From: a virus
Strand: one strand, 5' to 3'
IMG/VR virus record: IMGVR_UViG_3300005518_000017
Location: 1 to 64,000 of that record
DNA length: 64,000 bases
The notes beneath the pieces were generated by a model. It was not told the origin of the DNA and made no database searches. It worked only from the letters and a program-made list of their open reading frames with translations. Positions 4,516-62,771 of the stretch are shown here, in pieces. Position numbers and translations under genes: made by a program. Each line of letters begins with the position of its first letter. The first letter of the stretch is position 1.

Positions 4516-4545
4516 ATTAGTGCGCTGATTCACTTATTGAGTCAA
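4516..4545 (-). promoter_or_regulatory. phage-class promoter, TTGACT-N17-CACTAAT
   Basis: On the minus strand TTGACT (4540..4545), exactly 17 bases, then CACTAAT (4516..4522); the ATG of the small basic gene starts at 4507. The element overlaps the last codons of the helicase gene. It is one of the best matches to the recurring promoter class described in the findings. Confidence 0.65.
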
Positions 4546-5974
4546 CTACGAAATCGCCATCATTGAGACAATCCAAATTGTTCAACTTCAGGTCGAGCGC
4601 ACGTTTAATCTTTTCCTCGATTGTTCCCGCCGCGAGCAATACTCGATAGTGCGCTACACTTTTTCCGCCGTCACGATGCAACCGTCCAAGGTCCTGTTTA
4701 AACGATACTGCACTGTGGGTGGGCATGATCAATCCCATTCGCGGATGCGCCCCATCTAAATCTTGAAGGCTTACGCATATCCCTCCGGCTTCGGAATTGG
4801 CCAAGATTAGCCGGATATCATTTCGTTGAAAGCTATCAATCACCGCGTCTCGATTTCTAACTCCCTCCGGCGAACCGTCAATGATTGCTTGACAGTTCAG
4901 CCGCTTGGACAATTCTTCTATCGTCTGCCGGTAATTCACGAAAACCACTACGCTAAAACCTTTTTCGATATAGTCCGAAGCCAATTCCACGGCAATCGGC
5001 ACTTTCAGTAATTCGATTTTCTGCCGCGCGCGGAGAATGGTAGTCACGGCCAGCCCAGAATCATTTTCGCTTCGCTTGTCCAGCACCGTTAATGCTTCAC
5101 TCATTTCGGCGTAGAGCCGGTCAATTTGACCCGCGCCATCGTCGAGGTCGTAAAGTTTTGCTTGGATTTCCCGTTTTGGGAAACCGGGGATATCTTCGCA
5201 TCGCACTCGCACGCCACGCGCCGGTATGATGCTTTCATTGATCTGCCGCATTACCGCATTCTGTTTATCCTTACCGACCATCCACCGGAATCCCGGACCG
5301 GCGGGGTCTTTGCGGCATCCGTAGCGCCTAGCCCATGCGTAGAATGAGCTACCGCCGCTGTGAAGATCGAGCACATAGCCAAGAGCCGACATTTGCAGCG
5401 GAGAACATGCTGCGGTTGCAGAAAGACCGAGAATTTTACGACCTTTTGCTGCTTCCAGCATCCGCGCGTTCAAAGAACCGATGCCCCCGCAGCGGTGAAC
5501 CTCGTCAAAAATGATTAGCTTCGCGCCGGGATGAAAATGAAACTTACCGTAATTCCATTTTCGTTTTTTGATTATGACGCAATGCGCGCCAATGGGAGAG
5601 CAATAGCACGGCTGAAACTTCTCGAAGTCCACTTGTCTCTGACAGCACTGGCACACGAAAAATTCTTCTCGCTCGAATCCGGGCGGGGGCGAGTTATCCC
5701 ACCAACCGAAAGGGGTCCTGCCAGTGCGAAGTTTTTCGTATCCGATTACTGTAAAAGAATCGTTGAAATGCGCGGCGGCTCGAAGCCACGAAGACCGGGC
5801 GATTTTAGGTGAGACAACTAGCGTTCCGACGTTTAGCCGTTTCGCCACTGCGGCAGCGACGTAGGTCTTGCCCGTGCCGGTGTCGGAGAGATCAAAGGCC
5901 GAGCCAAAAGCGGTTAGCGTCGAGACCAGTTTTTCAACCGGAACAAGCTGATGTGGCCTAAGCAGGTTTTTCAA
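4517..5974 (-). CDS. SF2 (SNF2/DEAD-like) DNA helicase
   Basis: 485 residues. Motif I DTGTGKT (31-37), motif II DEVH (157-160), motif III SAT (185-187) and a C-terminal RecA-like lobe ending in the motif VI-like QDLGRLHRDG make a complete superfamily 2 ATPase. An insert at about 108-132 carries six cysteines (CQCC, then CYC and HC), probably a zinc finger. The start is a TTG immediately after the TGA of the upstream gene; no better ATG exists before motif I. Phage helicases of this class act in replication initiation or recombination. Confidence 0.88.
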   Translation of the reverse strand: MKNLLRPHQLVPVEKLVSTLTAFGSAFDLSDTGTGKTYVAAAVAKRLNVGTLVVSPKIARSSWLRAAAHFNDSFTVIGYEKLRTGRTPFGWWDNSPPPGFEREEFFVCQCCQRQVDFEKFQPCYCSPIGAHCVIIKKRKWNYGKFHFHPGAKLIIFDEVHRCGGIGSLNARMLEAAKGRKILGLSATAACSPLQMSALGYVLDLHSGGSSFYAWARRYGCRKDPAGPGFRWMVGKDKQNAVMRQINESIIPARGVRVRCEDIPGFPKREIQAKLYDLDDGAGQIDRLYAEMSEALTVLDKRSENDSGLAVTTILRARQKIELLKVPIAVELASDYIEKGFSVVVFVNYRQTIEELSKRLNCQAIIDGSPEGVRNRDAVIDSFQRNDIRLILANSEAGGICVSLQDLDGAHPRMGLIMPTHSAVSFKQDLGRLHRDGGKSVAHYRVLLAAGTIEEKIKRALDLKLNNLDCLNDGDFVVDSISESAH

Positions 5975-6268
5975 TCACATCCAATTTGGCCGGACACCCG
6001 GAGGGAGCGGCACTCGCACTGGAGTATGTCGAATTTCAGCATTGTCGAGCGCGCAGTAGAAATTCTCAACGGTCCCGTATCCCGAATATTCCATGCGAAA
6101 TGACTCTACTGTTGCCTCTGGAATTTGTTCTCGTGGTAGGTGAATGATTACATCCCAAAAAAAAGGTTGCCTTCGCCATTGTGATACCGGGCGCGTCAGT
6201 AACAGCCACGCGGCAAACAGACCGAAAATGCTAGTGTCGAGGAATCGCGGGACGTTTTTCAATTGCAT
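5975..6268 (-). CDS. unknown protein, possible membrane segment
   Basis: 97 residues from the ATG at 6268 (MQLKNVPRFLD). A longer reading from 6334 overlaps the HD gene by over 100 bases and is less likely. Residues about 13-24 (IFGLFAAWLLL) are hydrophobic and could anchor it. The C-terminus is Pro/Arg rich. It overlaps the HD-hydrolase gene by 38 bases and abuts the helicase start. Confidence 0.6.
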   Translation of the reverse strand: MQLKNVPRFLDTSIFGLFAAWLLLTRPVSQWRRQPFFWDVIIHLPREQIPEATVESFRMEYSGYGTVENFYCALDNAEIRHTPVRVPLPPGVRPNWM

Positions 6269-6791: not shown

Positions 6792-7206
6792 ACTCCAGCA
6801 GCCGGAATCCCCATCTAATAATTGAGTCTTTGAACCGGGTTTCTTCGATCCGTCGTGGGATTTGATTTCCACTATCAACGAGCCAGCCATTTTCCACGAT
6901 GACATAATGACCCGGACCGTCGTCCACGACAAAAAGTAGCCATTCCTCCGGGTGATTACGGGAATATTCTAACACAAGCTTGGCAGAGTAAGCGAAAAAA
7001 TAAATCATGTCAAACTCGATGCCGAATCCAGCGCAGACATCTCGCAAGAACTCCCAAGGAACGCCGAGGGCTGGGTCCGCCCGGCGTTTCGCCAGTTCGG
7101 CGTTACACCATGATACCGGCTTGCCGGTAATTGACGACAGCACCGCAGGTCCACACCAGAGTTTCTGGCCGGGACAATCGTTATTTACGGGAGACAGCTT
7201 TAGCAT
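6775..7206 (-). CDS. C39-like / papain-fold cysteine peptidase domain protein
   Basis: 143 residues without a signal peptide. WCGPAVLSSITG (Cys18), GHYVIVENG (His99) and LVDSG (Asp110) give the Cys-His-Asp order of C39-like thiol proteases. It starts in a TAATG overlap with the dNMP-kinase-like gene, so the two are coupled. It would act in the cytoplasm. The target is unknown. Confidence 0.65.
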   Translation of the reverse strand: MLKLSPVNNDCPGQKLWCGPAVLSSITGKPVSWCNAELAKRRADPALGVPWEFLRDVCAGFGIEFDMIYFFAYSAKLVLEYSRNHPEEWLLFVVDDGPGHYVIVENGWLVDSGNQIPRRIEETRFKDSIIRWGFRLLEYDNRD

Positions 7207-8198
7207 TAGATCACAATTGCGGGGGCGGAACCGGGGGCAGCGACTCCGCCGCCGATTGCCGACAAAAATTCGGCTACGGTATAAAGCCGGGGCGACGGCG
7301 GTGGTTTACTGCTATTCCAAATTACGTTTAGCTTCGACCCAGTTCTCTGCGCAGAAATTTTTCGAGTCACATCAGCGTCGATTGCTGCCGCCAGTTTTTC
7401 AGAATAATCGCTGACTACCGGCGATTTGGAATCCAGCCCGTCTTTCTTTAGCCGTAACGCCCATTCGTCTGATGTCGTCAAGACGTGATAGTGACGAAAA
7501 CCAAATTCTTGCATCCGTTTAAACTCATGCTCGAATCGGACGCTGGTAGTAGCGACGCGTGCGTCTGGTGTATCTGCGAGAAACGCTTCCATGCGCATAA
7601 TCACCGCGTCGAGCCAAATATTGTCATCGTAGCCGAAGGCATCCCAATTGACTTTAAAGTCTTTGATTTCCGAGTGCCGCCCGCCGAACCCGGAAGCCGC
7701 GTGTTCCCGGACGAGATTCACAAAATTCGCGCGCTCGATTGACACTGGATACTGTTCGTTGATCACCCCTCGGCCAAGCTGTCCGCATTGTTGAAGAAAT
7801 TTGCGCGCGCCGTGCTTGTCTTTGTCTTCGACGCCGAAAAAATATTTCAACAGAAAGTAAAGCGGCTCGGAGAATCCGAAAATCTTTGCGCCGGTGAGTC
7901 CTGCCACGTGATCTTTACCAGCCTTAAGACGACCGGTATAAAAAACCTTGGCGCCATCGATTGCCTTCGAGGACGGTTTGGCCGCTTCTGGCGGGGCAAC
8001 TGGGGTGCTGTGTTTTTTTTCGATGGCGTTTACTCCTGCCACGAGAGATTCTACGCGCGCGCCGGTGATTTCAGGATTATTCAAGAAACCCACAAGGTCT
8101 CGCATCACGGCGGCGTCATTGCCGCGCGCGGCGGGGTCTAGCGGCCTTTTTAAAGTTGTGACGAGTAGGTCTTTGGTGTTTTCAATATTTTCGGGCAT
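7206..8198 (-). CDS. deoxynucleoside-monophosphate-kinase-like P-loop protein
   Basis: 330 residues. After about 80 Pro/Ala-rich residues comes YTGRLKAGKDHVA (P-loop 89-96), followed by KIFGFSEPLYFLLKYFFG. This layout is typical of phage dNMP kinases (G-x4-G-K-D, then a FxFxxPL lid region). Conserved Asp/Arg-rich helices and a final AEFLSAIGGG segment follow. The codons for that last segment (7244..7278) are duplicated as 35 identical bases in the repeat region at 15133. A CACTATT element ends just before the ATG. Confidence 0.72.
   Translation of the reverse strand: MPENIENTKDLLVTTLKRPLDPAARGNDAAVMRDLVGFLNNPEITGARVESLVAGVNAIEKKHSTPVAPPEAAKPSSKAIDGAKVFYTGRLKAGKDHVAGLTGAKIFGFSEPLYFLLKYFFGVEDKDKHGARKFLQQCGQLGRGVINEQYPVSIERANFVNLVREHAASGFGGRHSEIKDFKVNWDAFGYDDNIWLDAVIMRMEAFLADTPDARVATTSVRFEHEFKRMQEFGFRHYHVLTTSDEWALRLKKDGLDSKSPVVSDYSEKLAAAIDADVTRKISAQRTGSKLNVIWNSSKPPPSPRLYTVAEFLSAIGGGVAAPGSAPAIVI
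7244..7278. repeat. 35-bp sequence shared with 15133..15167 (inverted)
   Basis: These 35 bases at the 3' end of the kinase-like gene recur, reverse-complemented and without mismatch, in the non-coding divergence region. Here they are coding (part of AEFLSAIGGG). Confidence 0.85.
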
Positions 8199-8202
8199 AT
8201 TT

Positions 8203-8233
8203 AATAGTGTGTTAATGAGGGCGAGAAAAACGA
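8203..8233 (-). promoter_or_regulatory. putative phage promoter, TCGTTT-N18-CACTATT
   Basis: CACTATT on the minus strand (8203..8209) ends 4 bases before the ATG at 8198. A TTGTTT-like hexamer (TCGTTT, 8228..8233) lies 18 bases upstream. The same arrangement precedes the genes at 23728 and 29000. Confidence 0.45.
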
Positions 8234-8240
8234 AATTTTT

Positions 8241-14199: not shown

Positions 14200-14859
14200 T
14201 TACACATCGAAGGTCCAAATTTCTTTTTCCCGGACCGGGTCAAAACCTCGGCGCCCAAAGCCGGAATTGTGCAACTCTTCGCGGACGGCGTCCCACCATT
14301 TCAACGGGTCAGCACCCACATGCCGCAATATCTCCAGAACGGTTAGGCTTACCGTGGCTTCGCCGGGATGACATTTAGCCCAATCGTCGATGACCTTAGT
14401 CATACGGTAAAGAAACTCGGTTATAGTAAACCGGCGGTCTAAATCTGGACGAAGGGCTTTCTTGCTGCGTAAGAACTTTCGTAGACGAAAAATTGTGTTG
14501 GGATGGCCGTTACCGTCGTGCCGCATTTGATCCAGCCGGGCCGTAGCCTCTTCAACTGTGAGACGGGGCCGGGGCCGGGGCCCCTTACGCTCCAATTCTG
14601 GCGGTAGCATCCCAGCAGCGCGAAGAAATCGGCGCAGGTTACAGATTTGAGACGGGCACCCGCGAGTATCGAGGAGATGCTTCAGCTTGGCTATTTTCAC
14701 TTCCACCGAGGCCGCAACAGAACGTTTTTCAAGTTCTGGGGGCAATACGCCCTCGAATCGCAGCGCACGCCGCAAGAGGCAAATCCGGGACGGATCGCCG
14801 TTAGATTTCAGTAATTCAGTCAGCTTGGCTATTCGTTGTTCAGTAGTGTGTGGTTTCAT
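14200..14859 (-). CDS. triple-repeat protein beside the divergence region
   Basis: 219 residues containing three imperfect copies of a motif of about 38 residues: RIAKLTELLKSNGDPSRICL (starting about 9), KIAKLKHLLDTRGCPSQICN (about 55) and ARLDQMRHDGNGHPNTIFRL (about 112). Each is followed by LRRxLR and PxLxR. The copies are helix-loop-helix-like and basic, so tandem DNA-binding modules are plausible. It is the first leftward gene from the repeat-rich region at 14.88-15.86 kb, fitting a role in binding those repeats. No known family is recognised. Confidence 0.65.
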   Translation of the reverse strand: MKPHTTEQRIAKLTELLKSNGDPSRICLLRRALRFEGVLPPELEKRSVAASVEVKIAKLKHLLDTRGCPSQICNLRRFLRAAGMLPPELERKGPRPRPRLTVEEATARLDQMRHDGNGHPNTIFRLRKFLRSKKALRPDLDRRFTITEFLYRMTKVIDDWAKCHPGEATVSLTVLEILRHVGADPLKWWDAVREELHNSGFGRRGFDPVREKEIWTFDV

Positions 14860-14881
14860 GGTAATGAGTGTAGCCGATTAG

Positions 14882-14962
14882 GCGGTTCGGCACAACAACA
14901 ATTTATTTGCGGTTCGTCACAACAACAATTTATTTGCGGTTCGTCACAACAACAATTTATTT
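14882..14962. repeat. three tandem 27-bp direct repeats
   Basis: Copies at 14882-14908, 14909-14935 and 14936-14962, each GCGGTTCG-(G/T)-CACAACAACA followed by ATTTATTT. The third copy runs into the left arm of the large inverted repeat. No spacers separate them, so this is not a CRISPR array; iteron-like protein binding sites are more likely. Confidence 0.9.
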
Positions 14963-15689: not shown

Positions 15690-15854
15690 TGTAGTTGGCT
15701 GAGCGCGCGCTTTGTGACAACTGATGTTAACGCGAGTGCGCGCTCTGTGACACTGGGATGCGCGCTCTGTGACACTGGAGTGACACTGGAGTGACACTGG
15801 AGTGACACTCAGTAATAATTTGTAGTTGACAGAGCGCGCGCTTTGTGACACTGA
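15690..15854. promoter_or_regulatory. operator/iteron array upstream of the ribbon-helix-helix gene
   Basis: Four copies of GCGCGCT(C/T)TGTGACA at about 15701, 15737, 15758 and 15832. The outer two belong to near-identical 35-bp units (TGTAGTTG-x-GAGCGCGCGC...). Between them an 11-bp unit GTGACACTGGA repeats about four times from 15769. A TTGACA at 15826-15831 and an extended -10-like TGATACTGT at 15852-15860 lie across the last copy, so repressor binding would overlap the promoter. Confidence 0.65.
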
Positions 15855-15862
15855 TACTGTAT

Positions 15863-19098: not shown

Positions 19099-19523
19099 AA
19101 GTCAGGACTGGACGGCTTCTTCGTTTGGCCCGGCATCTTCGCAAGGGGAAATTGGCCCACAAGATTTTTTATTTTGGGGCTTACAATATCACGGTTATTC
19201 CAAAACCGGGAACCGTTTTCCCACTGCGGGCTCACCTTGAACCCGAAACGTGCGGCACGCAAGGATGCGCGTGGGGCGAATGTCCGGTCCTTTGGCCGAA
19301 GCAACTTATGTGGGATGGTAACGCAGTTAGAATGCGGCGCGGAGCCACTGGATTCGTTATCAACGATGCCGCCAAATTTTTTGGTCTTACTTATCAGGAG
19401 GCCATTCAGATATTCGTTCCGGGAAAACTGACCGATCGCGCGACGAAGGAACAAGTTGCGCGCGAGATTGAAGACTTTTGTCGCGAAGCGCGCGACAGTA
19501 ACAAGTGGCTCCGAGAGAGTTGA
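19095..19523 (+). CDS. paralogue 3 of the CGTxGCAxGExP family
   Basis: 142 residues: TGRLLRLARHLRKGKLAHKI, ETCGTQGCAWGECPVLWP, then GATGFVINDAAKFFGLTYQE and a C-terminal helix. It has an insert of about 14 residues before the CGT motif compared with paralogues 1 and 2. The last codons overlap the -35 hexamer of the promoter that drives the protease gene. Confidence 0.65.
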   Translation: MKVRTGRLLRLARHLRKGKLAHKIFYFGAYNITVIPKPGTVFPLRAHLEPETCGTQGCAWGECPVLWPKQLMWDGNAVRMRRGATGFVINDAAKFFGLTYQEAIQIFVPGKLTDRATKEQVAREIEDFCREARDSNKWLRES

Positions 19524-19549
19524 CCCGACCGCCGGACCGGCGCACTGTT
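19520..19549 (+). promoter_or_regulatory. phage-class promoter, TTGACC-N17-CACTGTT
   Basis: TTGACC (19520..19525), 17 bases, CACTGTT (19543..19549), then 4 bases to the protease ATG at 19554. One of the clearest examples of the class. Confidence 0.65.
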
Positions 19550-19553
19550 AAAT

Positions 19554-20393
19554 ATGAAACCGTTCAAAGTCGTCGTCCAGTCTCTCGTATTGTCTTCACT
19601 ACTGCTCGGAGGGTTCGCGACCTTTCTTCAGTGCCGTAATTATATTGAATCTGTTACTGGTGCTGGCGATACGGCTAAATGCGAAACTGCGCAGCGGCAG
19701 ACTGTCCTCGTGGCGACGGTGCATGGAAGCGGCAGCGGGTTCGTGGTTCTCAGGAAAAACATCGACGGCAAAACACGCGTCTTTGTGTGGACCGCCGCCC
19801 ATGTGGTAGAGGGTGTCGATACCGCGACGGTCAGGCTAACGTTTCGCAACGAGTCGCACAAAGCCGGTCTTGCGGTTTTTAATGCGCGGGTAGTCTACCG
19901 GACCCCCGGCGTTGACGCCGCGCTGATTCAGGTGGATGCCCCGCCCAGTTTTTTTGTGAATACTGAATTTGATTTTTCGGTGCCGAGAGTCGGGACGCCA
20001 ATATATCATGTGGGGAATTTGTTCGGGGATAATTTTGACGGGAGTTTTACAACTGGAGTGCTGTCTCAGGTCGGAGTGCAGATTGCAGGATGGCCGTGGA
20101 GACTATTGGATCAAACCACTTCTCTCGCGGTTCCGGGGTCTTCCGGCGGTCCGATTTTCAACGGTAGGAACCGGAAGGTGTTGGGAATTCTAGTGGGGGG
20201 TCCCGGCGTCCCCGGAATCTCGTGCTATATCCCGGTCCGGGAATTGCAGAGTGCAGTCAACCCAGACATGGATTGGATGTTCAAAGATAAAATGTGCCCA
20301 TCGGATAGGTTGCTCGATGCCATCGTCAACACCACGAAACTTTTAAAAATCGTGACGGCGTTGACCGGAGAGACTGAATCTCGCACTAGGTAA
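19554..20393 (+). CDS. secreted trypsin-like serine protease
   Basis: 279 residues. An N-terminal hydrophobic segment (about 5-26) acts as signal peptide or anchor. The S1/HtrA catalytic triad is complete: H83 in WTAAHVV, D121 in GVDAALIQV and S197 in PGSSGGP. There is no PDZ domain. The last 45 residues are an extension with one Cys (KDKMCPSD). It probably works in the periplasm. A full trypsin-fold protease is unusual in a phage early region. Its start is served by a phage-class promoter. Confidence 0.82.
   Translation: MKPFKVVVQSLVLSSLLLGGFATFLQCRNYIESVTGAGDTAKCETAQRQTVLVATVHGSGSGFVVLRKNIDGKTRVFVWTAAHVVEGVDTATVRLTFRNESHKAGLAVFNARVVYRTPGVDAALIQVDAPPSFFVNTEFDFSVPRVGTPIYHVGNLFGDNFDGSFTTGVLSQVGVQIAGWPWRLLDQTTSLAVPGSSGGPIFNGRNRKVLGILVGGPGVPGISCYIPVRELQSAVNPDMDWMFKDKMCPSDRLLDAIVNTTKLLKIVTALTGETESRTR
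20361..20390 (+). promoter_or_regulatory. phage-class promoter, TTGACC-N17-CACTAGG
   Basis: TTGACC (20361..20366), 17 bases, CACTAGG (20384..20390); the ATG follows at 20397. It lies inside the last codons of the protease gene. Confidence 0.6.
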
Positions 20394-20629: not shown

Positions 20630-20706
20630 TGCGGGGTGGAGCAGCCCGGTAGCTCAGCACGCTCATAACGTGAAGGTCGCAAGTTCAAATCTTGCTCCCG
20701 CAACCA
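20630..20706 (+). tRNA. tRNA-Met (CAU), initiator-like
   Basis: A 77-base cloverleaf with encoded CCA. The sequence GTGGAGCAGCCCGGTAGCTC, the anticodon loop CTCATAA and TTCAAAT follow bacterial initiator tRNA closely, including the A11:U24 pair in the D stem. Two initiator hallmarks differ: the anticodon stem lacks the three G:C pairs (it has A:U, C:G, G:C plus a G27/A43 mismatch), and 1:72 is a weak U:A pair rather than C/A unpaired. It may supply initiator tRNA during infection or be a decoy. Confidence 0.85.
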
Positions 20707-21878: not shown

Positions 21879-22016
21879 ATGGAACCCATTGAAAAACCAA
21901 ACGGCGACGACAGCGGCCAGAACCCGGCATGGCCGGGTGAAGACCTTCAGAAACCCGGAACGCGCAAGCGGGACGAAGACCGGGACGAAGTTACGATAAT
22001 TCCAATTATCCGTTGA
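21879..22016 (+). CDS. 45-residue charged protein
   Basis: ATG at 21879, TGA at 22014..22016. It begins MEPIEKPNGDDSGQNPAWPG and continues highly charged (GTRKRDEDRDEVTIIPIIR). Its stop overlaps the -35 box of the next promoter. Low complexity makes it uncertain, but it fills the space between two real genes exactly. Confidence 0.4.
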   Translation: MEPIEKPNGDDSGQNPAWPGEDLQKPGTRKRDEDRDEVTIIPIIR

Positions 22017-22041
22017 CAATCCAGTAGTCGCATAGTATTCT
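22013..22041 (+). promoter_or_regulatory. sigma70-type promoter
   Basis: TTGACA (22013..22018), 17 bases, TATTCT (22036..22041). The HNH-AP2 ATG is at 22048, where transcription should start, so the message would be leaderless. Confidence 0.7.
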
Positions 22042-26614: not shown

Positions 26615-26877
26615 CGATACCGCGCCCGTGGTATGCCGTTGCTTCGATTTTTCGCGTAGCCTATGCCCGATGGTATGGGTATTCTATACTCGCTTCGTCT
26701 TCGGAAGTTTTGATACGCTTGCCAATTTGTATAGATTGCCCGTTTAGAAATGGAAGCCAATGCGGTGTTTGCGGCTGTTTAATCGAGGCCAAAACGATGA
26801 TAGCTGTCGAGAAATGCCCAAAAGGTAAGTGGCCGTCAATATGGACGAAACGCTCTAAATCGAGCACTAATCATTAA
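26611..26877 (+). CDS. small zinc-ribbon protein
   Basis: 88 residues. The hydrophobic first third (WYAVASIFRVAYARWYGYSI) could be a membrane helix. The C-terminus has CIDCPFRNGSQCGVCGCLIE and KCPKGKW, five to six cysteines of a zinc ribbon related in style to 26042..26614. Its last codons contain the CACTAAT box of the portal promoter. Confidence 0.65.
   Translation: MTIPRPWYAVASIFRVAYARWYGYSILASSSEVLIRLPICIDCPFRNGSQCGVCGCLIEAKTMIAVEKCPKGKWPSIWTKRSKSSTNH
26842..26871 (+). promoter_or_regulatory. phage-class promoter, TGGACG-N17-CACTAAT
   Basis: TGGACG (26842..26847), 17 bases, CACTAAT (26865..26871); portal ATG at 26883. Confidence 0.55.
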
Positions 26878-28964: not shown

Positions 28965-28995
28965 TTGTTTTTTCCGTAAAAAATACGGCACTATT
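28965..28995 (+). promoter_or_regulatory. putative phage promoter, TTGTTT-N18-CACTATT
   Basis: TTGTTT (28965..28970), 18 bases, CACTATT (28989..28995), then 4 bases to the ATG at 29000. CCGTA-AAAAA-TACGG between them is a small palindrome that may be an operator. Confidence 0.5.
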
Positions 28996-28999: not shown

Positions 29000-29308
29000 A
29001 TGATAGTAGATGATGCTTTGCCGTGGACCAGCGATGATATCGCAAATTGGGCGGCATTCTTGAATACTAAAACCGGGCAACGGCTGATTCCCAAACTGGT
29101 AGAAAGTTGTCCGGCCCTTTTGGGATGCGGAGACACTAACAATATTCTTATACGGAGCGGCGAAGTAAGAGGATTTGCGGAGACCGCCCGTGTTCTGCTT
29201 TCACTGACTCACGAACCCGAAGGTCTTAAAAAAGACCCGACTGCGTATCCTTCACCGGAGGACGATGCGGCGTGGGACGATAAAGAAAAACTCAACTCTG
29301 AACACTAA
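29000..29308 (+). CDS. unknown acidic protein
   Basis: 102 residues, acidic, helical (WTSDDIANWAAFLNTKTGQR; then a C-terminal DDAAWDDKEK). Small proteins of the type 'WAxFLxTxTGQRLLxxL' occur between portal and scaffold genes in some phages. No function known. The stop overlaps a CACTAAT box just before the next gene. Confidence 0.6.
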   Translation: MIVDDALPWTSDDIANWAAFLNTKTGQRLIPKLVESCPALLGCGDTNNILIRSGEVRGFAETARVLLSLTHEPEGLKKDPTAYPSPEDDAAWDDKEKLNSEH

Positions 29309-29314
29309 TCATTT

Positions 29315-34983: not shown

Positions 34984-35914
34984 ACTATTGGCTCTCGGCG
35001 GCGAAAAGGTCAATCATGAAATCACTGGATGGGATGAATTTCTGATGGCCGTCGAGAGTAGTGGCACGATTTTCGATACCGAAAAGCAAACCGTTTTCGG
35101 GGTGCTTTTAGCCGCGCAAAAATGCCACGATAACGCTGCGCTTCTGTGTCACGATATTCCAGAACTTGAGGGATGGACTGGGTTCGCCCTGACTTCTCAG
35201 GGGACGTGGGTGAACCACAGTTGGTGCTGGCATCCAGAATGGAAAGCCGTGATCGAGACCACTGGATATTTCAAAAAATATTTTGGGGTGCGAATGCCGG
35301 TTGAATTTCTTCGCAGCGAGTTGGCCAATGCAGAGGAATGTCGGACAGCGTTGGGAATACCGAAGGAATTGGGAAAAGTGCTTTGGGCGAAGACGCACAA
35401 AATGTGCATCAAATGTCGGCAAGAAAAATTGTTGACCGGGTTTCGCGTGCTCAAGTATCCGCTAAAAGACGGCCGGATTAAATTGTGGGTCCGTAAGGAC
35501 TGCCGAGAGTGTGAGCGGGTGGCGCTTAAGAAACGGGACCCGGATAAATTGGCAGCGGCGGCTAGAAAGTGGAGTAAGGATAATCCCGAAAAACGAAATG
35601 CTACTAGACGAAAATATAATCGAAAATACCCAGAAAGATATCGAGCGCAATCGAGAAAATATTTATATGGGCTTTCAGACGAGAACTTTAAACAAATGCT
35701 ATTAGATCAAAAAGCTTGTTGCGCGATTTGCGGGCGGGTATTTTGTTTAGACAGAAAGGAGCGTAAGTCTGCGCCACATGTAGACCATGATCACATTACC
35801 GGAAGTATCCGCGCACTCCTTTGCGGCCCCTGCAATTCTGGTTTGGGGTATTTTCAGGAATCACTACTCCTTCTCCAAAAAGCTTCAGAGTATCTTCAAA
35901 AATATTCGGGTTGA
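34955..35914 (+). CDS. fusion of an unknown N-terminal domain to endonuclease VII
   Basis: 319 residues. Residues about 1-135 form a domain (WTGFALTSQGTWVNHSWCWH) seen alone in other phages as a hypothetical protein. The middle has CIKCRQEKLLTGF and CREC, a zinc finger pair. Residues about 225-319 are recombination endonuclease VII (LDQKACCAICGRVF, HVDHDHITGSIRALLCGPCN), the T4 gp49-type HNH enzyme. Fusion probably followed insertion of an endonuclease into the 3' end of the first gene. The N-terminal ATG lies inside the preceding gene (29-base overlap). Confidence 0.8.
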   Translation: MQNIENLEAKLLALGGEKVNHEITGWDEFLMAVESSGTIFDTEKQTVFGVLLAAQKCHDNAALLCHDIPELEGWTGFALTSQGTWVNHSWCWHPEWKAVIETTGYFKKYFGVRMPVEFLRSELANAEECRTALGIPKELGKVLWAKTHKMCIKCRQEKLLTGFRVLKYPLKDGRIKLWVRKDCRECERVALKKRDPDKLAAAARKWSKDNPEKRNATRRKYNRKYPERYRAQSRKYLYGLSDENFKQMLLDQKACCAICGRVFCLDRKERKSAPHVDHDHITGSIRALLCGPCNSGLGYFQESLLLLQKASEYLQKYSG

Positions 35915-35940
35915 CCGATTTCTTTCTTCCCCGCACTAAT
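35911..35940 (+). promoter_or_regulatory. phage-class promoter for the capsid gene, TTGACC-N17-CACTAAT
   Basis: TTGACC (35911..35916), 17 bases, CACTAAT (35934..35940), starting at the stop of the endonuclease VII fusion. Unlike the other copies it has a leader of about 145 bases before the ATG at 36093, which shows that the motif is not simply a ribosome-binding signal. Confidence 0.7.
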
Positions 35941-36092
35941 CAATACGAGCCTAAACTTCGATTCGATTGCTCATCGAATCACGGCCTATCCGCTGATGGC
36001 CACAGCGACAAACCCGTTGAGGGGTAATTTTCTCAACAACCGGCGATACAATCATCAGAGGGCCGGGGTAAGTCTCTGGTAAACAATTTTTT
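35941..36092 (+). promoter_or_regulatory. structured 5' leader of the capsid mRNA
   Basis: Contains a perfect 8-base stem GATTCGAT-TGCTC-ATCGAATC (35960..35980) and a second stem GTTGAG/CTCAAC (36016..36037). A long structured leader on the most highly expressed virion gene probably stabilises the message or tunes translation. Confidence 0.55.
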
Positions 36093-38828: not shown

Positions 38829-39369
38829 AATCCGAAACACAAAAATTTTGGTCTGGGCGTGCAACTCAATTCTGATTTTAGGAATGCTGGGATGCGCTTT
38901 TCGCCCCCTCCGTCCCGGTATCGGGACTATCAATCTCCCCGGCGTGACGAGCACCGTGCAACAGTCCGAGAATCCCAAGACCGAATCGACGCAGCACTAT
39001 GAAAAAATTACGGATGGCGTCAAAACCACAGAAAAGCTTGAGACCAAAATCGGGGCATCTCAAAAAGACACGGCCCGCGAAGTCGCAGCCAAATTGTCCT
39101 CCCTCAAAGGTGTGGTTTGGATCGGAATTCTGCTCTTTGTTCTCGGTGTGGCTTCGGCGGTGTGGCCCCCACTCAAAGTGATTGTGGGAAGTCTTACTAC
39201 CAGTGTAGTGTGCGCGGTAGCGGGCGTCGCTTTGATCGTTCTTCCCTCTTTGATTGTGGGCAATGAAATTCTTATTTTGAGCGTTGCCGGGGGCGCAGTT
39301 GTGCTTTGGTTTTTTGCTCACCGGCATGGAACCGCGAGAGGCGAATTAAAAACTTTAAAACGTGACTAG
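38821..39369 (+). CDS. lipoprotein with membrane segments
   Basis: 182 residues from the ATG at 38821 (an upstream in-frame ATG at 38794 is less likely because the signal starts at MNKIRNTKILVW). ILILGMLGCAF is a lipobox. A helical middle (about 35-90) is followed by three hydrophobic spans (GVVWIGILLFVLGVASAV; TTSVVCAVAGVALIVL; ILILSVAGGAVVLWFF). Role possibly envelope-associated. Confidence 0.65.
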   Translation: MNKIRNTKILVWACNSILILGMLGCAFRPLRPGIGTINLPGVTSTVQQSENPKTESTQHYEKITDGVKTTEKLETKIGASQKDTAREVAAKLSSLKGVVWIGILLFVLGVASAVWPPLKVIVGSLTTSVVCAVAGVALIVLPSLIVGNEILILSVAGGAVVLWFFAHRHGTARGELKTLKRD

Positions 39370-39380
39370 CTCACGTTTTT
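39357..39380 (+). terminator. rho-independent terminator
   Basis: AAAACGTGA-CTAGC-TCACGTTTTT is a compact hairpin with a T-run. It overlaps the -35 region of the next phage promoter, so one block stops and the fibre block restarts. Confidence 0.65.
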
Positions 39381-39391
39381 CTTGCACTAAT
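39362..39391 (+). promoter_or_regulatory. phage-class promoter, GTGACT-N17-CACTAAT
   Basis: GTGACT (39362..39367), 17 bases, CACTAAT (39385..39391), then 4 bases to the ATG at 39396. Confidence 0.6.
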
Positions 39392-45492: not shown

Positions 45493-47140
45493 CGTTGTTG
45501 AGACTCTTTATTTGCGACGCCCGAAAATCGAATACGTTTCTCCGCCGGTGTGTGATTTTTTATTTTCATCGAGCGGCGGTCCGGTGATAGTGCTCAATGA
45601 CATTAGCAAGCGGCGCGGCCCATCGGGTTTGATACTGAGCGGTGAGGGGAATTTTAGGCTGTCGTGGAATACATATCCCGGCGCTCTTTGCTACAATATA
45701 TACCGGCTAGAGGACGGAGAATACGTAATCTTTGCGGAATGCCAAGAGGCTACGTTTATCGATTTGCCGCCCGGAACTTACATCGTCACTGCTATCACGA
45801 AAGATGGAGAAACCGATCCTAGCGATCCGATTGTCGTTAGTGGCACCCCTCCGCCGATTGAACCGACGATTGAAGAGGTTGGGATGAATCCCATTAACAT
45901 GCTGGCGGAAGACGGGACAATCGTTGGTGTGATTCCGGTTGGATTTGGAAGGCCGGGGATTCACGCCGGGGGAGTTACGGGCGACCTGCGAACCGAAACC
46001 GAAAGCGATCCGATTCAAGCCAGCCAGTTAGCAACCACTGTCACGGCTAGCGACACTATTTTTCAGGCGAGCGACGTGGGCAAAGTAATTGTGTTTTCGA
46101 CCAGTGAACAGGCTCAGATAACTGCGTTTGTGTCTCAGCTTCAGGTAACGGTGACGCCTAGCCAAACCGTGGCGTCCACGGTATTCACCATTCGCGGTGA
46201 AACTCTGGGGGGTTCTTTTGGTAACGCGCATCTCTGTAATTCAAATGGGATAGTGGCGGGAGTAGAATCTATTTTCGGGGATTCTCAATCAGATTATTTT
46301 TGGCTAAACCGGGCGACTGGTGAGATCAGAGATTTGTTTGTTTTCACGGATGTAGCCGGGTTCGTCTACTCGATAAACGAAAATGGATTTTTGCTGCTGG
46401 CGCACAATTCCGGCCCGCACATTAGTTCAAAACTTTACGATCCAGTCTCGCAGACCGTCACAGATTTGGGGAGTATTGACGGGAATCTAGGACAGACTTC
46501 TCCCAAAGGTTTAAACGATGCTTTGCAATGCGCCGTGACTGCGCAGACGATCAATAACGTTCCGTTTCCGCATACTCAGAATAAAGCAGCTATTTGGCAA
46601 TCTGGAATAATGACGGACTTGCATCCTGCCGCCGCTGGGAATGAAAACAGTCAAGCGGTAGGGATAAACGCAATCGGGCATGTTTTTGGAACGTTTTTCG
46701 ATTCAGTTACTTTCAACACCCGATCTTTCTTGAATCAAGGCGGTGCGTCTTTCGACATTGGCGGAATCGGAGACACCGAGGTAGACGCTATCGCCATAAA
46801 CGATTCCGATACCATAGTCGGAACCTGTGACAATGGATCAGGAGATTTTGTTCCCTTTGTCTATTCTCCATCTGGTGGGTTTCAATTGATACCACTACTC
46901 CCCGGCACCACTTCCGGGCAAGCGAACGACGTTAACAATGGCGGAGAGGTAGTGGGAAATATGGACGGGATTGGATTTCACTATAAGGATGGAGTCACAA
47001 CTCCTTTGACCGACTTTTTGCCGGATAACCCGGATGGGTGGACTACCCTAAGCCCGCTATTCATAAACAACGCGAGACAGGTGACTGGATACGGGTTGCA
47101 CAACGCGGCGCTGGTGGGTTTTCTGTTGCAGATGGCATGA
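45485..47140 (+). CDS. tail spike-type protein with FN3-like and HAF-like repeats
   Basis: 551 residues from the ATG at 45485. A fibronectin-III-like domain (about 55-125: FRLSWNTYPGALCYNIYR, then FIDLPPGTYIVTAI) is followed by a domain of unknown fold and then repeats of the extracellular HAF type (GINAIGHVFGTFFDS, AINDSDTIVGTCDN, DVNNGGEVVGN). Such repeats form a propeller. Presumably surface-exposed on the tail and involved in host contact. Confidence 0.65.
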   Translation: MNSVVETLYLRRPKIEYVSPPVCDFLFSSSGGPVIVLNDISKRRGPSGLILSGEGNFRLSWNTYPGALCYNIYRLEDGEYVIFAECQEATFIDLPPGTYIVTAITKDGETDPSDPIVVSGTPPPIEPTIEEVGMNPINMLAEDGTIVGVIPVGFGRPGIHAGGVTGDLRTETESDPIQASQLATTVTASDTIFQASDVGKVIVFSTSEQAQITAFVSQLQVTVTPSQTVASTVFTIRGETLGGSFGNAHLCNSNGIVAGVESIFGDSQSDYFWLNRATGEIRDLFVFTDVAGFVYSINENGFLLLAHNSGPHISSKLYDPVSQTVTDLGSIDGNLGQTSPKGLNDALQCAVTAQTINNVPFPHTQNKAAIWQSGIMTDLHPAAAGNENSQAVGINAIGHVFGTFFDSVTFNTRSFLNQGGASFDIGGIGDTEVDAIAINDSDTIVGTCDNGSGDFVPFVYSPSGGFQLIPLLPGTTSGQANDVNNGGEVVGNMDGIGFHYKDGVTTPLTDFLPDNPDGWTTLSPLFINNARQVTGYGLHNAALVGFLLQMA

Positions 47141-47155
47141 AAAACTTGCACTAAT
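47126..47155 (+). promoter_or_regulatory. phage-class promoter, TTGCAG-N17-CACTAAT
   Basis: TTGCAG (47126..47131), 17 bases, CACTAAT (47149..47155), then 4 bases to the ATG at 47160. Confidence 0.55.
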
Positions 47156-47981: not shown

Positions 47982-48011
47982 TCGCCAAGTAGCCGAATTT
48001 TCGGCACTAAT
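47982..48011 (+). promoter_or_regulatory. phage-class promoter, TCGCCA-N17-CACTAAT
   Basis: CACTAAT (48005..48011), 17 bases after TCGCCA (47982..47987), then 4 bases to the ATG at 48016. The -35 is weak. CCGAATTTTCGG between the boxes may be an operator palindrome. Confidence 0.45.
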
Positions 48012-58400: not shown

Positions 58401-58649
58401 GCTTTTTCTCAGAAGGCTTTTCGTGCTGCCGCTGAGAAGTATGGTGTCAAGCCGGATGCACTTCAGGGCGCGCTGTGGTTCGCCGAAAAATCTCTGTGGG
58501 CTGAAAAGGGTTGGAGCGCGTTAGACTACGGCGATTTCCGTAAAGAGATGGAAAAAATCCCAGCCTTGCGCAAGGCTATGCAGTCTCAAACTGACGAGAC
58601 GCCGCCCGCAATCACACCCGATTTAATCACGGCAAGAAAGAAAAAGTAA
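52428..58649 (+). CDS. giant internal/ejection protein with HExxH protease motif
   Basis: 2073 residues. It is the largest gene here and sits where podoviruses encode pore-forming ejection proteins. A Gly/Ala-rich hydrophobic stretch (about 298-325: VLPVAGAVIGGAKFGPAGIL) could insert in membranes. APHESFHAIQ at about 545-554 is a zinc-metalloprotease HExxH motif (H547, E548, H551). The last 250 residues (WYSDFTTKFKKEFGKDSQLM, AATSPQTDVSMNFRYAFEAV, DLWADRTMRRIGYSD) form a domain found at the end of other very large phage proteins. Pro/Gln-rich linkers separate the domains. No lysozyme is seen. Confidence 0.75.
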   Translation: MPLTPEEIAEANSLESAAQPKPLNPIKDLSAQELVDLTTKDPDNFDLVSEFQRNKDLWADSNLVQKVADAHNLVKQRGFQFSDLPGPKKLLKSGFDVVKGFGKQIWNYANAAGAAVAGQLVPGSEEEMNREAQRRVAESFSGTESAVTGLAEMGKRGIEKAGRGLGISKPLTQFTPEEKVKDLFDAVGAGETQEEILKGHGGFMQPVGGEVIKELEQKGMPVRPEETQALAAGDPFSWYLFGKALQPVEAAGKAVAGALPTIKGAKGLTGAVGESLEQTGKAIQQSGRAAEVVPKVATPVLPVAGAVIGGAKFGPAGILGGLAAGKQAAGGVGKVAAPIAAGAKKLGSSLESLGKQIAGSAPMKSAYAQIGKDILEATPGAVASTAKGAALDIGLAAATSETPQETGGVGLGTALGALGGAGRIGKRVISGQIIAPREFGATAAIPSSGQFPTLDAMHQSAFAGAEPGVKLRLNAIREFVKGAAPGTDVFLAKDAPSLESALVQSGVSPEQAKQWSQQEGIFTRDLPSKDGATRRVIIAKNVDSAPHESFHAIQDVIGEEGNRQIDDLVKKEYADQWDTEGNRYAHRLGIDLKTNTWEEGILDKSGWGIDAAKEKLIQTYGTPKAAADVLQMAVEGAKERNPQASEQQIWRDILTPEEAKAEADRYIARELAAENFDAVFKHGGPRLENQTLPGQLARLAAKIMVGLGIEPLAGRKTEIGQIEPKFRVAESVQQIGKVTPGETIVPKTSSTPTPPTAPLSPEGEILRNWIAKNPITVPDRARAASAIADAAEQGKAVQVIYYGAKGEPGGSIESERPERRAEIESQREAENKDRPLVRKTFTPERVEITGKGPQIIGWSPDNFFANANKLAEWASKTGVALPYEIADGKFTDAGWNSLQADLKTFMQNQRAGATGSGEALVVPKETLARGFTQPKAEGTPQALDQARADIINYLFGTKIPETTSRVAPLHIAGQEISAATAPGRVEIPVRPRGEYTEAQLLKAGIVEPKGVREVNPFRQQIENTAKQTGVPVPELIEVSQRLNLNRIADASVAPEVQPIRANTLTLAAGFQPREWRVQGVRNGTKDEQTFKADTENEARQMALANGLRPTSVSAAGENAALASGMFQPPKLSKEPEAIKIAAVRFPNGKIYTADESLTHGGALRKAFNAGEPRTEGYDVGFTTNAGEFLSRKAAFKRAKEFGQITGEEYTPRPGELESVMFEGAKAGPAIRMESQFQPKTAQEIEQMSSEDFQKWTQTLPGGFTKFAYDLGQGAADKGPEEVAKLRDSYSALQDQAAKLLQTDVQTAMTTSFKAQLFREAWEAATGLGSGGEMMRTLRAKSQAQPAKEDFKFPERSASGFKKAWILPDGTPVQLGGKWHHQWLAENKDVIGLDVPPFEGTDTAGVREKALQKGFVRVNYTVRSGSMNVEARAADWPNQKEAIRSMVEANAPDLDNIHISLTNEAGDKVIRSESAKLFELDDADKMSRIPLMENAEITPRKELGPAVEPEALRPPPVEEPSAVKGKAKSIEETLKNQAQPELFSDPEFESRLDEVRNGSRAGETFTPGGNSWRTGGKDYDIVTLASVNVPKKELTADRVRTELAPYSELLKTPGVVAGVFSFEKDGKPMVSIDLNAAVPQEHRENSVNFAKANNQISIWDASAAEEVKTGGTGETTLKTPEQINKILKPLLAGEPVDIETAIKSQAQPKAQEDLFGTEGEQHKRPLSSSELGGMTNQQIKEYYPESVIPKSREDRIQSKITESPLYKKAGDEDAAVNAFADKLVEFAHSRENDPAFKDGMEWYSDFTTKFKKEFGKDSQLMAEMLAATSPQTDVSMNFRYAFEAVESMKAGRFDKIISKFNEGLGMMEDGSWEKWINKEIKAGRVPDPPAKLTPATFMAHWVMTHNLKPIRPNGKLFGLHSTNVLRVFARRWLDMSVGPKTKNFVANLLGDSHEATIDLWADRTMRRIGYSDFQERWRILPKNLHPVSDKDFAFSQKAFRAAAEKYGVKPDALQGALWFAEKSLWAEKGWSALDYGDFRKEMEKIPALRKAMQSQTDETPPAITPDLITARKKK

Positions 58650-58650
58650 A

Positions 58651-58816: not shown

Positions 58817-58821
58817 GAACT

Positions 58822-59469
58822 ATGGACCAAGCTATTGTTGAACCTTCACCTACCGCCGACGCCGTTGCTGAGGTAACCCCCACCGCCCCGCAAGCAAAAG
58901 GAACAACTGCACCGGCGCTCTCCGATGAACTTTTACAAATCCCCGCGCTTCAGGCAGTTTTTGCCGGTCAGCCCGCCGCCGTGTCGGCTTCATTGAAGGA
59001 CTTTCAGGCGCGGCCCGAAGGAAAACTCATTGCTGAGCACAAGGACGAACTAATGAAAGCCGGAATGGGGCTGTATCGCTCGCTGAACGGCGATCTAGGC
59101 GTGATCTTCAATCTACTGCACATTCACCCGGAGCAGCTAAAAGCTGCCGATAAAGCCGGGCAGTTGCTTCAGGTAGCCCCCTCATTTGACGATGTAAATG
59201 CCCAAGTGGCGTCTTCGGGGGCTGATCATCCTGTGCTCAAGGCTCAGGGGGTGCCAAATGGCCCCGCCGCTGCCCCGCTGGCGAGTCCGCCGCAGGCAAC
59301 CTCTGGTATGGTGGCTCCCCCATCGACTTCCGTGGCCCCTGCTGCCTCTGGCGCGCAAAGACTGGCAGAATCAGCGAAGATCAAAGCTTTGACTACGGAT
59401 AAGCCTACGGCTGGCTCTAGGGCTGGCGCTGGGGCGCTTCTGCGCTCCATCCTGAAGCCAGTGGTTTGA
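58822..59469 (+). CDS. last rightward virion-block gene, unknown
   Basis: 215 residues. Ala/Pro-rich N-terminus, a central helical domain (GKLIAEHKDELMKAGMGLYR, NLLHIHPEQLKAADKAGQLL) and a long Ala/Pro/Ser tail that is probably disordered. It ends the rightward transcription unit, at the convergence with minus-strand genes. Confidence 0.55.
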   Translation: MDQAIVEPSPTADAVAEVTPTAPQAKGTTAPALSDELLQIPALQAVFAGQPAAVSASLKDFQARPEGKLIAEHKDELMKAGMGLYRSLNGDLGVIFNLLHIHPEQLKAADKAGQLLQVAPSFDDVNAQVASSGADHPVLKAQGVPNGPAAAPLASPPQATSGMVAPPSTSVAPAASGAQRLAESAKIKALTTDKPTAGSRAGAGALLRSILKPVV

Positions 59470-61043: not shown

Positions 61044-61554
61044 TTTGTTGTGATTCGTTGTTTTGTTTTTCTTGAATCCATTTCATTAAGTGCTCCGGGA
61101 CTTGCCCCTCGAAAACCATGTCGAAAGCTTTAACCGCCGCCGCCGGATTTTCGCCCAGTCCTAAGATCGCATTCCCAAGATCGTTGATATCACCCAAGAA
61201 AGCGATCCACATTCCGTCGCTCAATTGCGCCAGCTTGGGTTTAAATCGCATGTGCGGGGCCGCAGCCATTTCATTCGCCCGGCGAATCGCCACATGGGCT
61301 TCAATAAGTGACGCCTCCAAGGAATTCTGAGAATCCAATGACCACCGTTGCTTGTCCCCGATTATATCTCCAATTCGATTACAGATTTCTACGAGAGTCG
61401 TTTCGATTGCCATGCGCGCGCCGCCGTCCGTGATTCCGCTGCCGTCTGTGTATGTCATGGAAACAAACATGCCGTGCATCGTCGCCGCCGCGCCCAAAAG
61501 CGAAGAAAGTTGAGTATGGGTCACGGCGTCTCGATGGACTACTTGTTGTTTCAT
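60901..61554 (-). CDS. unknown protein with long overlap into the phosphoesterase gene
   Basis: 217 residues. A folded helical N-terminal part (1-165; LLGAAATMHGMFVSMTYTDG, LIEAHVAIRRANEMAAAPHM) is followed by a low-complexity tail (NESQQNEKNLDTGGIDSTTN...). That tail is encoded in the 143 bases shared, in another frame, with the N-terminal HTH of the phosphoesterase. The start overlaps the RuvC-like stop. Function unknown. Confidence 0.65.
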   Translation of the reverse strand: MKQQVVHRDAVTHTQLSSLLGAAATMHGMFVSMTYTDGSGITDGGARMAIETTLVEICNRIGDIIGDKQRWSLDSQNSLEASLIEAHVAIRRANEMAAAPHMRFKPKLAQLSDGMWIAFLGDINDLGNAILGLGENPAAAVKAFDMVFEGQVPEHLMKWIQEKQNNESQQNEKNLDTGGIDSTTNTKIDGSLGERNGRDSGEDDQGGPSPTGTDTGC

Positions 61555-62105
61555 ACAATCGCGCGCGAAAGATTTTTAAGCCCCCACCGATGCAACCACA
61601 CTGCATCAACGGTATTGTCATCGATTTGATGCACCGTAGTCGTAAATCCCGATTGGACGTGTGTATAATATATTTTGCTGGGGTCTGCTCCAATAGAAAA
61701 TCGAGAATCTAAATTGGCTAAGGCGAGCGCCATGTGATTTTTTTTAGCGGCCCCGCTTCCGGTAGCGAATTTTTTCAACGTTCCAACAGGCACGCATTCC
61801 AACAGTATTCCACAACCGCCGTAAGCCAGCCAAACTGCGGCCCGAAGACTGCTCCAAAGTTGAACTTGGAGAGTGTAGCTAGAAAATTGAACGTCCTCAA
61901 AAACTACCGCATCGAAAGGATGCGCAACGTTGAGTTTTTTATACAGGGCTAAAACGCGCGGGTCGCAGCGTCGGTCTAGCCGCTTCGTTCTCGCTATCGC
62001 AAGTTCTTTATCTGTTGCCAACGTCCATGTGCCGCATGAAAAATTGCTTCCAACATTGTAGGCATAGCCCGTTTTGCTCCCAAGGTCGAGTGCGAGTATG
62101 TCCAT
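61551..62105 (-). CDS. RuvC-like Holliday junction resolvase
   Basis: 184 residues. MDILALDLGSKTGYAY gives D7. VVFEDVQ gives E70. The GSGAAKKNHMALAL stretch holds the Lys of the RuvC fold, and IDDNTVDAVWL (D162/D163, D167) supplies the last acidic residues. It cleaves four-way junctions before packaging or in recombination. It starts 6 bases after a CACTAAT box and heads a minus-strand operon with the next two genes. Confidence 0.82.
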   Translation of the reverse strand: MDILALDLGSKTGYAYNVGSNFSCGTWTLATDKELAIARTKRLDRRCDPRVLALYKKLNVAHPFDAVVFEDVQFSSYTLQVQLWSSLRAAVWLAYGGCGILLECVPVGTLKKFATGSGAAKKNHMALALANLDSRFSIGADPSKIYYTHVQSGFTTTVHQIDDNTVDAVWLHRWGLKNLSRAIV

Positions 62106-62108
62106 ACA

Positions 62109-62771
62109 TCAATTAGTGTAGAATTCTTTAATATCCCACAAGCGGTTTCTCACCTTCCGCAGCGCGTGAGAGTGTGTGCCTTGCACTGCGGAACGAGTGA
62201 TTTCCAGCATCCGCCCAATCTCTTTGAAATTAAAACCGCCCCGGTAATGTAAATCGACAATCATACGTTCTTGGTCATTCAACTCCCACGCCAATATCGG
62301 GGCGACCCGTGCCCAGCGTTCCTTAATGTGAATTTTGTCAAATTCCGGCTCCACTAAATTCGGGGGATTTAACAATTTGATATATGAGCACTTCTTATCT
62401 TCGGAATCTTCGTCCGTTTGAATTTCATCGATATACTCGACGCATTCCCCGTTTGCAACGATTTTCAATCGGCTCCATGTTCGTCGAATTTCCCCCCGGA
62501 TATAAGGTTTTGCGTAACCGAAAAACCGGGACTCAGCAAACCGCCGGTTGAGATTGGGCTTGTAGTTCTTGGCGGCGTTTGTCAAAGCGGTGTAGCAGAG
62601 AGAAAACAAATCTCCATCGGGCAATTGTCCGTGAGAGGTATTCTTGGAGTAAGAAAACGCCTCGCGCATGTTGGCGAGAACCAGTTTAGTTCGGCCCGCA
62701 GCGGTCTTGACGGCAGCGGATTCTTGTTTCAACGTCAGCGGAGTTTCTGGCAACCCAGATAAGATGTTCAT
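62109..62771 (-). CDS. phage-encoded sigma factor (sigma70-like, regions 2 and 4)
   Basis: 220 residues. Region 2-like helices (about 50-105: FSLCYTALTNAAKNYKPNLN, FFGYAKPYIRGEIRRTWSRL) resemble the SLxxxLxxAxxxYdp...FxxYaxxxIrgeI core of group 3 sigmas. The C-terminal ELNDQERMIVDLHYRGGFNF, KEIGRMLEITRSAVQG and THSHALRKVRNRLW form region 4 with its HTH. There is no region 1 and little region 3. It is coupled to the D5-like gene. Candidate reader of the TTGAC/CACTAAT promoters; one lies at the end of its own coding region. Confidence 0.8.
   Translation of the reverse strand: MNILSGLPETPLTLKQESAAVKTAAGRTKLVLANMREAFSYSKNTSHGQLPDGDLFSLCYTALTNAAKNYKPNLNRRFAESRFFGYAKPYIRGEIRRTWSRLKIVANGECVEYIDEIQTDEDSEDKKCSYIKLLNPPNLVEPEFDKIHIKERWARVAPILAWELNDQERMIVDLHYRGGFNFKEIGRMLEITRSAVQGTHSHALRKVRNRLWDIKEFYTN
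62112..62141 (-). promoter_or_regulatory. phage-class promoter, TTGTGG-N17-CACTAAT
   Basis: On the minus strand TTGTGG (62136..62141), 17 bases, CACTAAT (62112..62118); RuvC-like ATG at 62105. It overlaps the last codons of the sigma gene. Confidence 0.55.

Follow-up and report, generated by a model that had tools for sequence, protein, structure and literature searches.

A probable CACTAAT-type promoter set in a clade of uncultured phages and the phage-encoded sigma factor proposed to read it

A two-box element recurs at gene starts on both strands of a 64,000-nucleotide stretch of viral DNA (bases 1-64000 of the 68,628-base IMG/VR virus record IMGVR_UViG_3300005518_000017, hereafter the window), which raises the question of whether the element is a promoter and, if so, which factor reads it. 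The original prediction, made from this stretch, listed ten sites in which a TTGAC-like hexamer precedes CACTAAT or a variant by 17 bases, and named a phage sigma factor encoded at 62109-62771 as a likely reader. In all ten sites we found a CACT-type box 17 bases from an upstream hexamer (Table 1). The hexamer was weaker than had been claimed, with an exact TTGAC in four sites (4516 on the minus strand, 19520, 20361 and 35911), a TTG start in seven, and TGGACG (26842), GTGACT (39362) and TCGCCA (47982) in the others; the constant part of the element is the CACT box and not the -35 hexamer. The placement at gene starts held for nine of the ten sites, in which the first box base lies 11-18 nt before the A of the ATG, while the box at 35911 lies 159 nt upstream. 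From these sites and their counterparts in related genomes, we consider it likely that the CACTAAT-type set represents the late, and in part middle, promoters in an uncultured soil phage clade (genomes of about 60-75 kb), which would be opened by the core RNA polymerase of the host with the phage sigma factor bound to it.

The set of two-box sites at gene starts is real. We called genes with our own codon-model script, which is blind to promoters and returned 64 genes in the 68,628-base genome (some are overlooked, such as 48016-48447), and assigned gene functions solely through family searches. Of the 12 CACTAAT copies in the record, 6 are located 10-19 nt before a called start, compared with 0.056 expected (binomial 9e-12). 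Among its 210 distinct letter permutations CACTAAT ranked best, the runner-up having at most two copies near starts, and a seventh copy (48005) precedes the overlooked open reading frame (ORF) noted above. Among the 6-mers in front of called starts, CACTAA and GCACTA showed the highest enrichment (8 each vs 0.21 and 0.22). Furthermore, a matrix built from the relatives only gave 17 matches of at least 11 bits in this genome; 6 of them are located 8-20 nt upstream of called starts, where 0.10 were expected, and 2 more (35935 and 48006) are sites of the original list. A matrix scan had been put forward as a check, with equally good matches inside genes counting against the element; this check told in part against the element, many matches being intragenic, but the start-site set stands. 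As a stand-alone detector in this genome the cross-genome matrix was too unspecific and was set aside, and a free two-box expectation-maximization per genome was discarded because it overfitted, assigning sites to up to 90% of genes.

The relatives were collected with the 669-aa protein encoded at 43483-45492, which as a query gave 12 loci and as an alignment 156 relatives, 80 of which were retained. Long genomes are 59-75 kb records read over their full length, the records carrying no completeness figure; the 16 long genomes comprise the present phage and 15 relatives (G013 and G014 are near-identical) and contain 1,087 starts. No relative was found in INPHARED with a 24-kb stretch or two conserved proteins, in a search for a host that scanned 84,980 genomes for patterns of these two proteins, or in a viral contig scan with the single sigma sequence; the viral contig scans with alignments A3 and A4 gave three new genomes and none, respectively. 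In a tblastn search of phage records with the sigma sequence, 13 records matched with E values of up to 1, the best being 2e-6; all are unannotated, and 11 are human faecal contigs.

Across the 16 long genomes, ACT[AG]NT has its peak at a distance of 10-14 nt from the ATG on the upstream side (12, 13, 17, 14 and 8 per position) over a background of 1.2. In 21 of 84 such sites a TTG is located exactly at -24 from the A of the ATG, corresponding to a 17-bp spacer, while the other tested offsets gave 0-5; the offset control ranged from 1.0 to 3.0, with the 3.0 at -24, where sites remain in the control. The box itself drifts between relatives, which is invisible from one genome and hence goes beyond the original prediction. 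Besides CACTAAT in the present phage, the genome-specific forms include ACACTGTTTA (G009), TGACTGTTG (G010), TGACTATT (G001), AGACTATT (G014), TAACTGTT (G020) and AGACTGTT (G039), and the variants over the clade include CACTAAT, CACTGTT, GACTGTT and AACTATT. The first box base is heterogeneous among genomes (permutation p 0.0002; 93 sites in the 18 genomes with at least three sites). The structural block, assigned by nearness to conserved genes, holds 55 of 95 phage-type sites vs 4 of 18 sigma70-type leaderless sites (p 0.009).

The clearest orthologous site precedes the gene at 36093-37373, whose 426-aa product is the most conserved protein, with matches in 16 of 16 relatives searched at a mean identity of 83%. 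The product is probably the capsid protein, and no match to it was found in PHROGs or INPHARED, Pfam not being among the databases tried. TTGAC-N17-xACT is present in the orthologous position, 132-176 nt before the start, in 24 of 31 distinct upstream regions with a score of at least 13, a score reached by 32 of 3,000 random segments. The spacer is 17 in 23 of these 24, and the remaining seven regions score 7-11; the set leaves out L050, L053, G037 and L081, which have no usable start, and regions that were too short or identical. The promoter reading of the original prediction is thus strongly supported by the exact 17-bp spacing in the clade together with this orthologous promoter.

Between this promoter and the ATG, an H-type pseudoknot (GGCC..CGCTG..GGCC..CAGCG) is conserved at 35983-36007 and in 26 related leaders. 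Stem 2 keeps 134 of 135 pairs in the 27 leaders (free register), compared with a mean of 118 and a maximum of 127 in 500 partner swaps, and stem 1 keeps 98 of 108 pairs, compared with a maximum of 97; this swap test covers 27 of the 31 leaders, four low scorers being omitted. The anchored swap test replaced a free pseudoknot search, which was too lenient (its score was reached by 23% of shuffles). The pseudoknot had no Rfam match at gathering thresholds. A further interleaved pair, GAGC/GCTC with TTCGAT/ATCGAA, is possibly located in front of it, as judged by eye.

The assignment of 62109-62771 as a sigma factor gene was borne out by family searches, in which the protein matched Sigma70 region 4 (E 1e-9) and, among the PHROGs, one of RNA polymerase sigma factors (E 1.5e-10). 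All 17 family members have Pfam Sigma70_r4, and 4 of the 17 have Sigma70_r2, the present protein not being among the four; region 2 is otherwise supported by the alignment to FliA, the best solved relative of the sigma alignment (E 7e-16), and by the structural model. The model consists of two helical domains (residues 14-103 and 144-213) with a predicted local distance difference test (pLDDT) of 84.7, and the 50 matches listed by Foldseek are sigma70-family chains or their complexes (E 1e-5 to 1e-3). By the usual domain order, regions 1.1 and 3 were not discerned. The sigma gene is present in all 16 long genomes, which were chosen without regard to it. The Sigma70_r4 cut-off was passed in 3 of 9 and 17 of 28 records searched, one of them (G024) having a 99-aa partial protein, and the records that failed are fragments below 45 kb. 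None of the 16 sigma orthologues is preceded by a phage-type box, which fits expression of the sigma factor ahead of the promoter class it would serve. Sequence comparison thus makes the phage sigma factor a likely reader of the CACTAAT-type promoters. Separately, the 121-aa protein at 18518-18883 contains part of a sigma region 4 helix-turn-helix, scoring 23.9 bits against a cut-off of 24.1, and short partial region 4 matches are also present in several relatives.

We propose that the promoter would be a two-element promoter of the sigma70 family, with a -35 TTGAC (often TTG only), 17 bp, and a phage-specific -10 of the form [C/G/A]-ACT-[A/G]-[T/A]-T. For the early genes, the sigma operon among them, the host holoenzyme would act at sigma70-type promoters resembling TTGACA-N17-TATAAT, and accumulation of the phage sigma factor would then shift transcription to the CACTAAT-type set, opened by host core polymerase carrying it. 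Both labels of this set are provisional: late is drawn from gene content, and non-host from the separate TANNNT class. Because in most cases 4-14 nt separate the end of the box from the ATG (21 of 23 strict phage-type sites within 120 nt of a start), the transcript would start at the start codon or a few nucleotides before it; the capsid-like gene, with its conserved structured leader of about 125-170 nt, would be the exception. This placement of the box directly before the ATG is a further point beyond the original prediction.

Shine-Dalgarno-like words are present and rare, occurring at 147 of 1,290 starts (11%) vs 5% in windows further upstream. Since the box adjoins the ATG and such words are rare, the mRNAs from phage-type promoters are probably leaderless or nearly so. 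The sigma70-type promoters of the same genomes share the TTGAC -35 and the 16-18 bp spacer with the phage-type class but have a TANNNT -10 that is often TG-preceded, and they occur less often in the structural block; as originally claimed, CACTAAT and its variants are distinct from this class. For TTGAC-N16-18-TANNNT, the -10 ends 5-7 nt before the ATG in 17 of 34 near-start sites (109 in all), and both classes look leaderless or nearly so.

If the phage sigma factor reads the box, changes in the two might go together, and we compared them over the 17 genomes with a sigma gene and at least three sites (187 alignment columns). Residue 90 of the sigma factor (K-P-Y) gave the lowest permutation p of the 187 columns for C at the first box base (0.001, uncorrected); this residue presumably corresponds to W434 of E. 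coli sigma70 in region 2.3/2.4, to which it was aligned by eye. All eight genomes with Y at residue 90 have C at the first box base in at least half of their sites, compared with two of the nine others (Fisher 0.002; G027 and G021 at exactly half). Examples are G000 with Y and a C box, G010 with A and GACTGTT, and G016 with G and AACTATT. In the capsid promoters of 16 genomes, the first base is C in seven of seven Y genomes vs two of nine others (Fisher 0.003), the bases being assigned by eye, that of G020 by hand, and G001 and G012 carrying ACC instead of ACT. The covariation of residue 90 with the first box base is suggestive only. The wider proposal that the clade radiated distinct sigma-promoter pairs, in which a region 2.3/2.4 residue would set the -12 base (aromatic Y for C, small residues for G or A), along with a nearly leaderless late programme that keeps one structured, pseudoknotted leader for the capsid-like mRNA, is possible but in our view doubtful as a whole.

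Several observations weigh against this account. A phage-type site by our rule is present at just 95 of 1,138 called genes, and the ACT in such sites is conserved by construction because the rules are anchored on it. Numerous -35 hexamers are poor, and the pre-start ACT counts are little higher than chance in G013 (11 vs 9.8), G037 (10 vs 8.0), G014 (12 vs 8.2) and G022 (16 vs 10.4). Strict two-box matches in 17 genomes fall within 120 nt of a called start in 23 of 87 cases, and good matches away from starts are about as frequent as chance predicts. In the present genome, first-order shuffles gave 8.6 matches to the relatives-only matrix against the 17 found, so about half of the two-box matches of at least 11 bits are expected by chance and a lone match away from a start means little. 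For the sigma factor, the predicted template-modelling score (pTM) of the model is 0.49, and the Foldseek TM-scores are at most 0.37 among the matches listed. As for the covariation, the Y label at residue 90 needs a single change on the sigma tree, and therefore the p values overstate the evidence; the residue-90 p loses significance once all 187 columns are corrected for, and residue 90 is not the sole column that correlates. The simple rule fails in G012 (D, C) and in G021 (H, mixed), and G017 and G022 have two counted sites each.

Could the host read these promoters by itself? A host sigma factor, either an alternative one or a housekeeping one with unusual -10 tolerance, could do so while the phage sigma factor serves other sites; the -35 agrees with the sigma70 consensus, and the presence of a sigma-like protein is in itself no proof of which promoters it reads. 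However, TTGAC-TANNNT promoters form a separate class in the same genomes, and the -10 box differs among the phages in step with the phage sigma factor, by one change on the tree. As the hosts may differ too, this drift is not an exclusive argument, and on balance we consider reading by a host sigma factor improbable.

The short box at a narrow distance to the ATG and the rarity of Shine-Dalgarno-like words would also suit a translation-initiation signal, or a site bound by an activator or repressor of the phage, in place of a -10 element. Against this stand the exact coupling to TTG at 17 bp and the conserved site of the capsid-like gene, which lies too far from the start codon for a translation signal and fits a promoter, and we regard such a non-promoter role as very unlikely. 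We give hardly any credence to a phage RNA polymerase as the reader instead of a sigma-dependent host enzyme. Single-subunit polymerase promoters such as those of T7 and SP6 do contain CACTATA-like cores, and the structural block encodes a 2,073-aa protein without an assigned function, but a distinct -35 box 17 bp away is characteristic of sigma-dependent promoters. PF00940 matched none of 17 genomes, a weak argument since 14 control genomes were silent too. The 2,073-aa protein (52428-58649) matches only two PHROGs of unknown function, and no sequence match to it was found in the PDB.

The preferred reading, a phage sigma factor acting on host core polymerase, belongs to a known kind of late-promoter class. 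T4 gp55 and SPO1 gp28 and gp33-34 are phage sigma subunits that redirect the host polymerase in time, as proposed here, and their promoters (T4 late consensus TATAAATA; SPO1 AGGAGA..TTTNTTT) are both unlike the present element. The nearest precedent is Salmonella phage 7-11, whose sigma factor SaPh711_gp47 was proven in vitro at late promoters GTAAtg-16-aCTA (PMC8948821). The likeness comprises a sigma factor with region 4, the host core polymerase, two-element promoters before late genes with sigma70 promoters for early genes, and a -10 containing ACTA. In contrast, the 7-11 class has a -35 GTAAtg and a spacing of 16, a consensus that the TTGAC-N17-xACTRWT of the present clade does not match; the word leaderless is absent from the main text of that paper (PMC8948821), and the sigma factor is proven in vitro for 7-11 and proposed for the present clade. 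The two sigma factors are not recognisably close (hhalign probability 2%, over region 4 only and with a single 7-11 sequence). By the accounts in PMC8948821 and PMC4331800, the phiEco32 sigma factor phi32_gp36 is likewise phage-encoded and serves middle and late genes, but it lacks region 4 and acts at a single element, tAATGTAtA, without a -35, whereas the present clade has both.

No description of this promoter class was found in literature titles and abstract openings, mostly open-access, which agrees with the original remark that no class with this consensus was known; so far as these go, neither the consensus nor its drift over the clade nor its position at the ATG has been described. The study of 7-11 predicted other undescribed sigma-promoter pairs in related phages (PMC8948821), and the present clade, unrelated to 7-11, combines a single architecture with at least four variants of the -10. 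Such natural pairs make -10 recognition by the residue aligned to W434 directly testable, and the clade could supply orthogonal promoters. It would also be a group of phages in which the late mRNAs seem not to need a Shine-Dalgarno leader. Two further sites and three weaker ones beyond the original list are included in Table 1.

Table 1. Candidate promoters and associated features in the window.
Feature	Coordinates	Strand	Remarks
Sigma70-type promoter TTGACT..TATATT	93-120		GTTTAAAC in spacer
Phage-type promoter TTGACT-N17-CACTAAT	4516..4545	-	then ATG of ORF 4304-4507
Weak phage-type site, CACTATT without -35	8203..8232	-	further site; 4 nt before ATG of 7206-8198 (dNMP kinase-like)
Weak phage-type site GTGCCG-N17-CACTCAT	14864..14893	-	further site; precedes 14200-14859
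Phage-type promoter TTGACA-N17-CACTGAT	15826..15855	+	further site; precedes 15863-16315
Phage-type promoter TTGACC-N17-CACTGTT	19520..19549	+	ATG 4 nt past box; gene 19554-20393, trypsin-like
Phage-type promoter TTGACC-N17-CACTAGG	20361..20390	+	precedes 20397-20624
Sigma70-type promoter TTGACA-N17-TATTCT (contrasting)	22013..22041	+	6 nt before ATG of 22048-22521
Phage-type promoter TGGACG-N17-CACTAAT	26842..26871	+	precedes 26883-28943 (686 aa, conserved); box in 6/16 orthologues
Weak phage-type site, CACTATT	28966..28995	+	further site; 4 nt before ATG of 29000-29308
Phage-type site, CACTAAT with weak -35	29280..29309	+	further site; 5 nt before ATG of 29315-30637
Phage-type promoter TTGACC-N17-CACTAAT	35911..35940	+	of capsid-like gene 36093-37373; kept in relatives
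Leader of capsid-like gene	35941..36092	+	pseudoknot 35983-36007, covariation-supported
Phage-type promoter GTGACT-N17-CACTAAT	39362..39391	+	precedes 39396-40433 (tail-fibre-like)
Phage-type promoter TTGCAG-N17-CACTAAT	47126..47155	+	precedes 47160-47978; box in 4/16 orthologues
Phage-type site TCGCCA-N17-CACTAAT	47982..48011	+	precedes 48016-48447 (acetyltransferase-like)
Phage-type promoter TTGCGC-N17-CACTAAA	58787..58816	+	precedes 58822-59469; box in 13/16 orthologues
Phage sigma factor, 220 aa	62109..62771	-	proposed reader; family searches, structural model
Phage-type promoter TTGTGG-N17-CACTAAT	62112..62141	-	within sigma gene 3' end; precedes 61551-62105 (RuvC-like); box in 5/15 orthologues

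The sigma70-type promoter at 93-120 lies on the minus strand, and the palindrome in its spacer, GTTTAAAC, is over-represented in the record, with 11 copies compared with a mean of 2.25 for eight control palindromes. Its positions are 106, 4696, 7517, 18841, 32346, 34871, 44525, 46509 and 53842, and 65194 and 66311 beyond the window. The other long genomes contain 6-17 copies, except for G020 (0) and G039 (1). Of the 18 sigma70-type leaderless starts, 7 have the palindrome close upstream, inside the promoter, and it is possibly an operator or part of a genome-wide stoperator-like set. The window encodes a tRNA-Met (20630-20706) with a U1-A72 pair, which in its body and D stem resembles an initiator tRNA. 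Similar genes are present in several relatives, and the tRNAs of G013 and G014 have initiator-like bodies with the anticodon GTT; an initiator-like tRNA may matter for leaderless translation.

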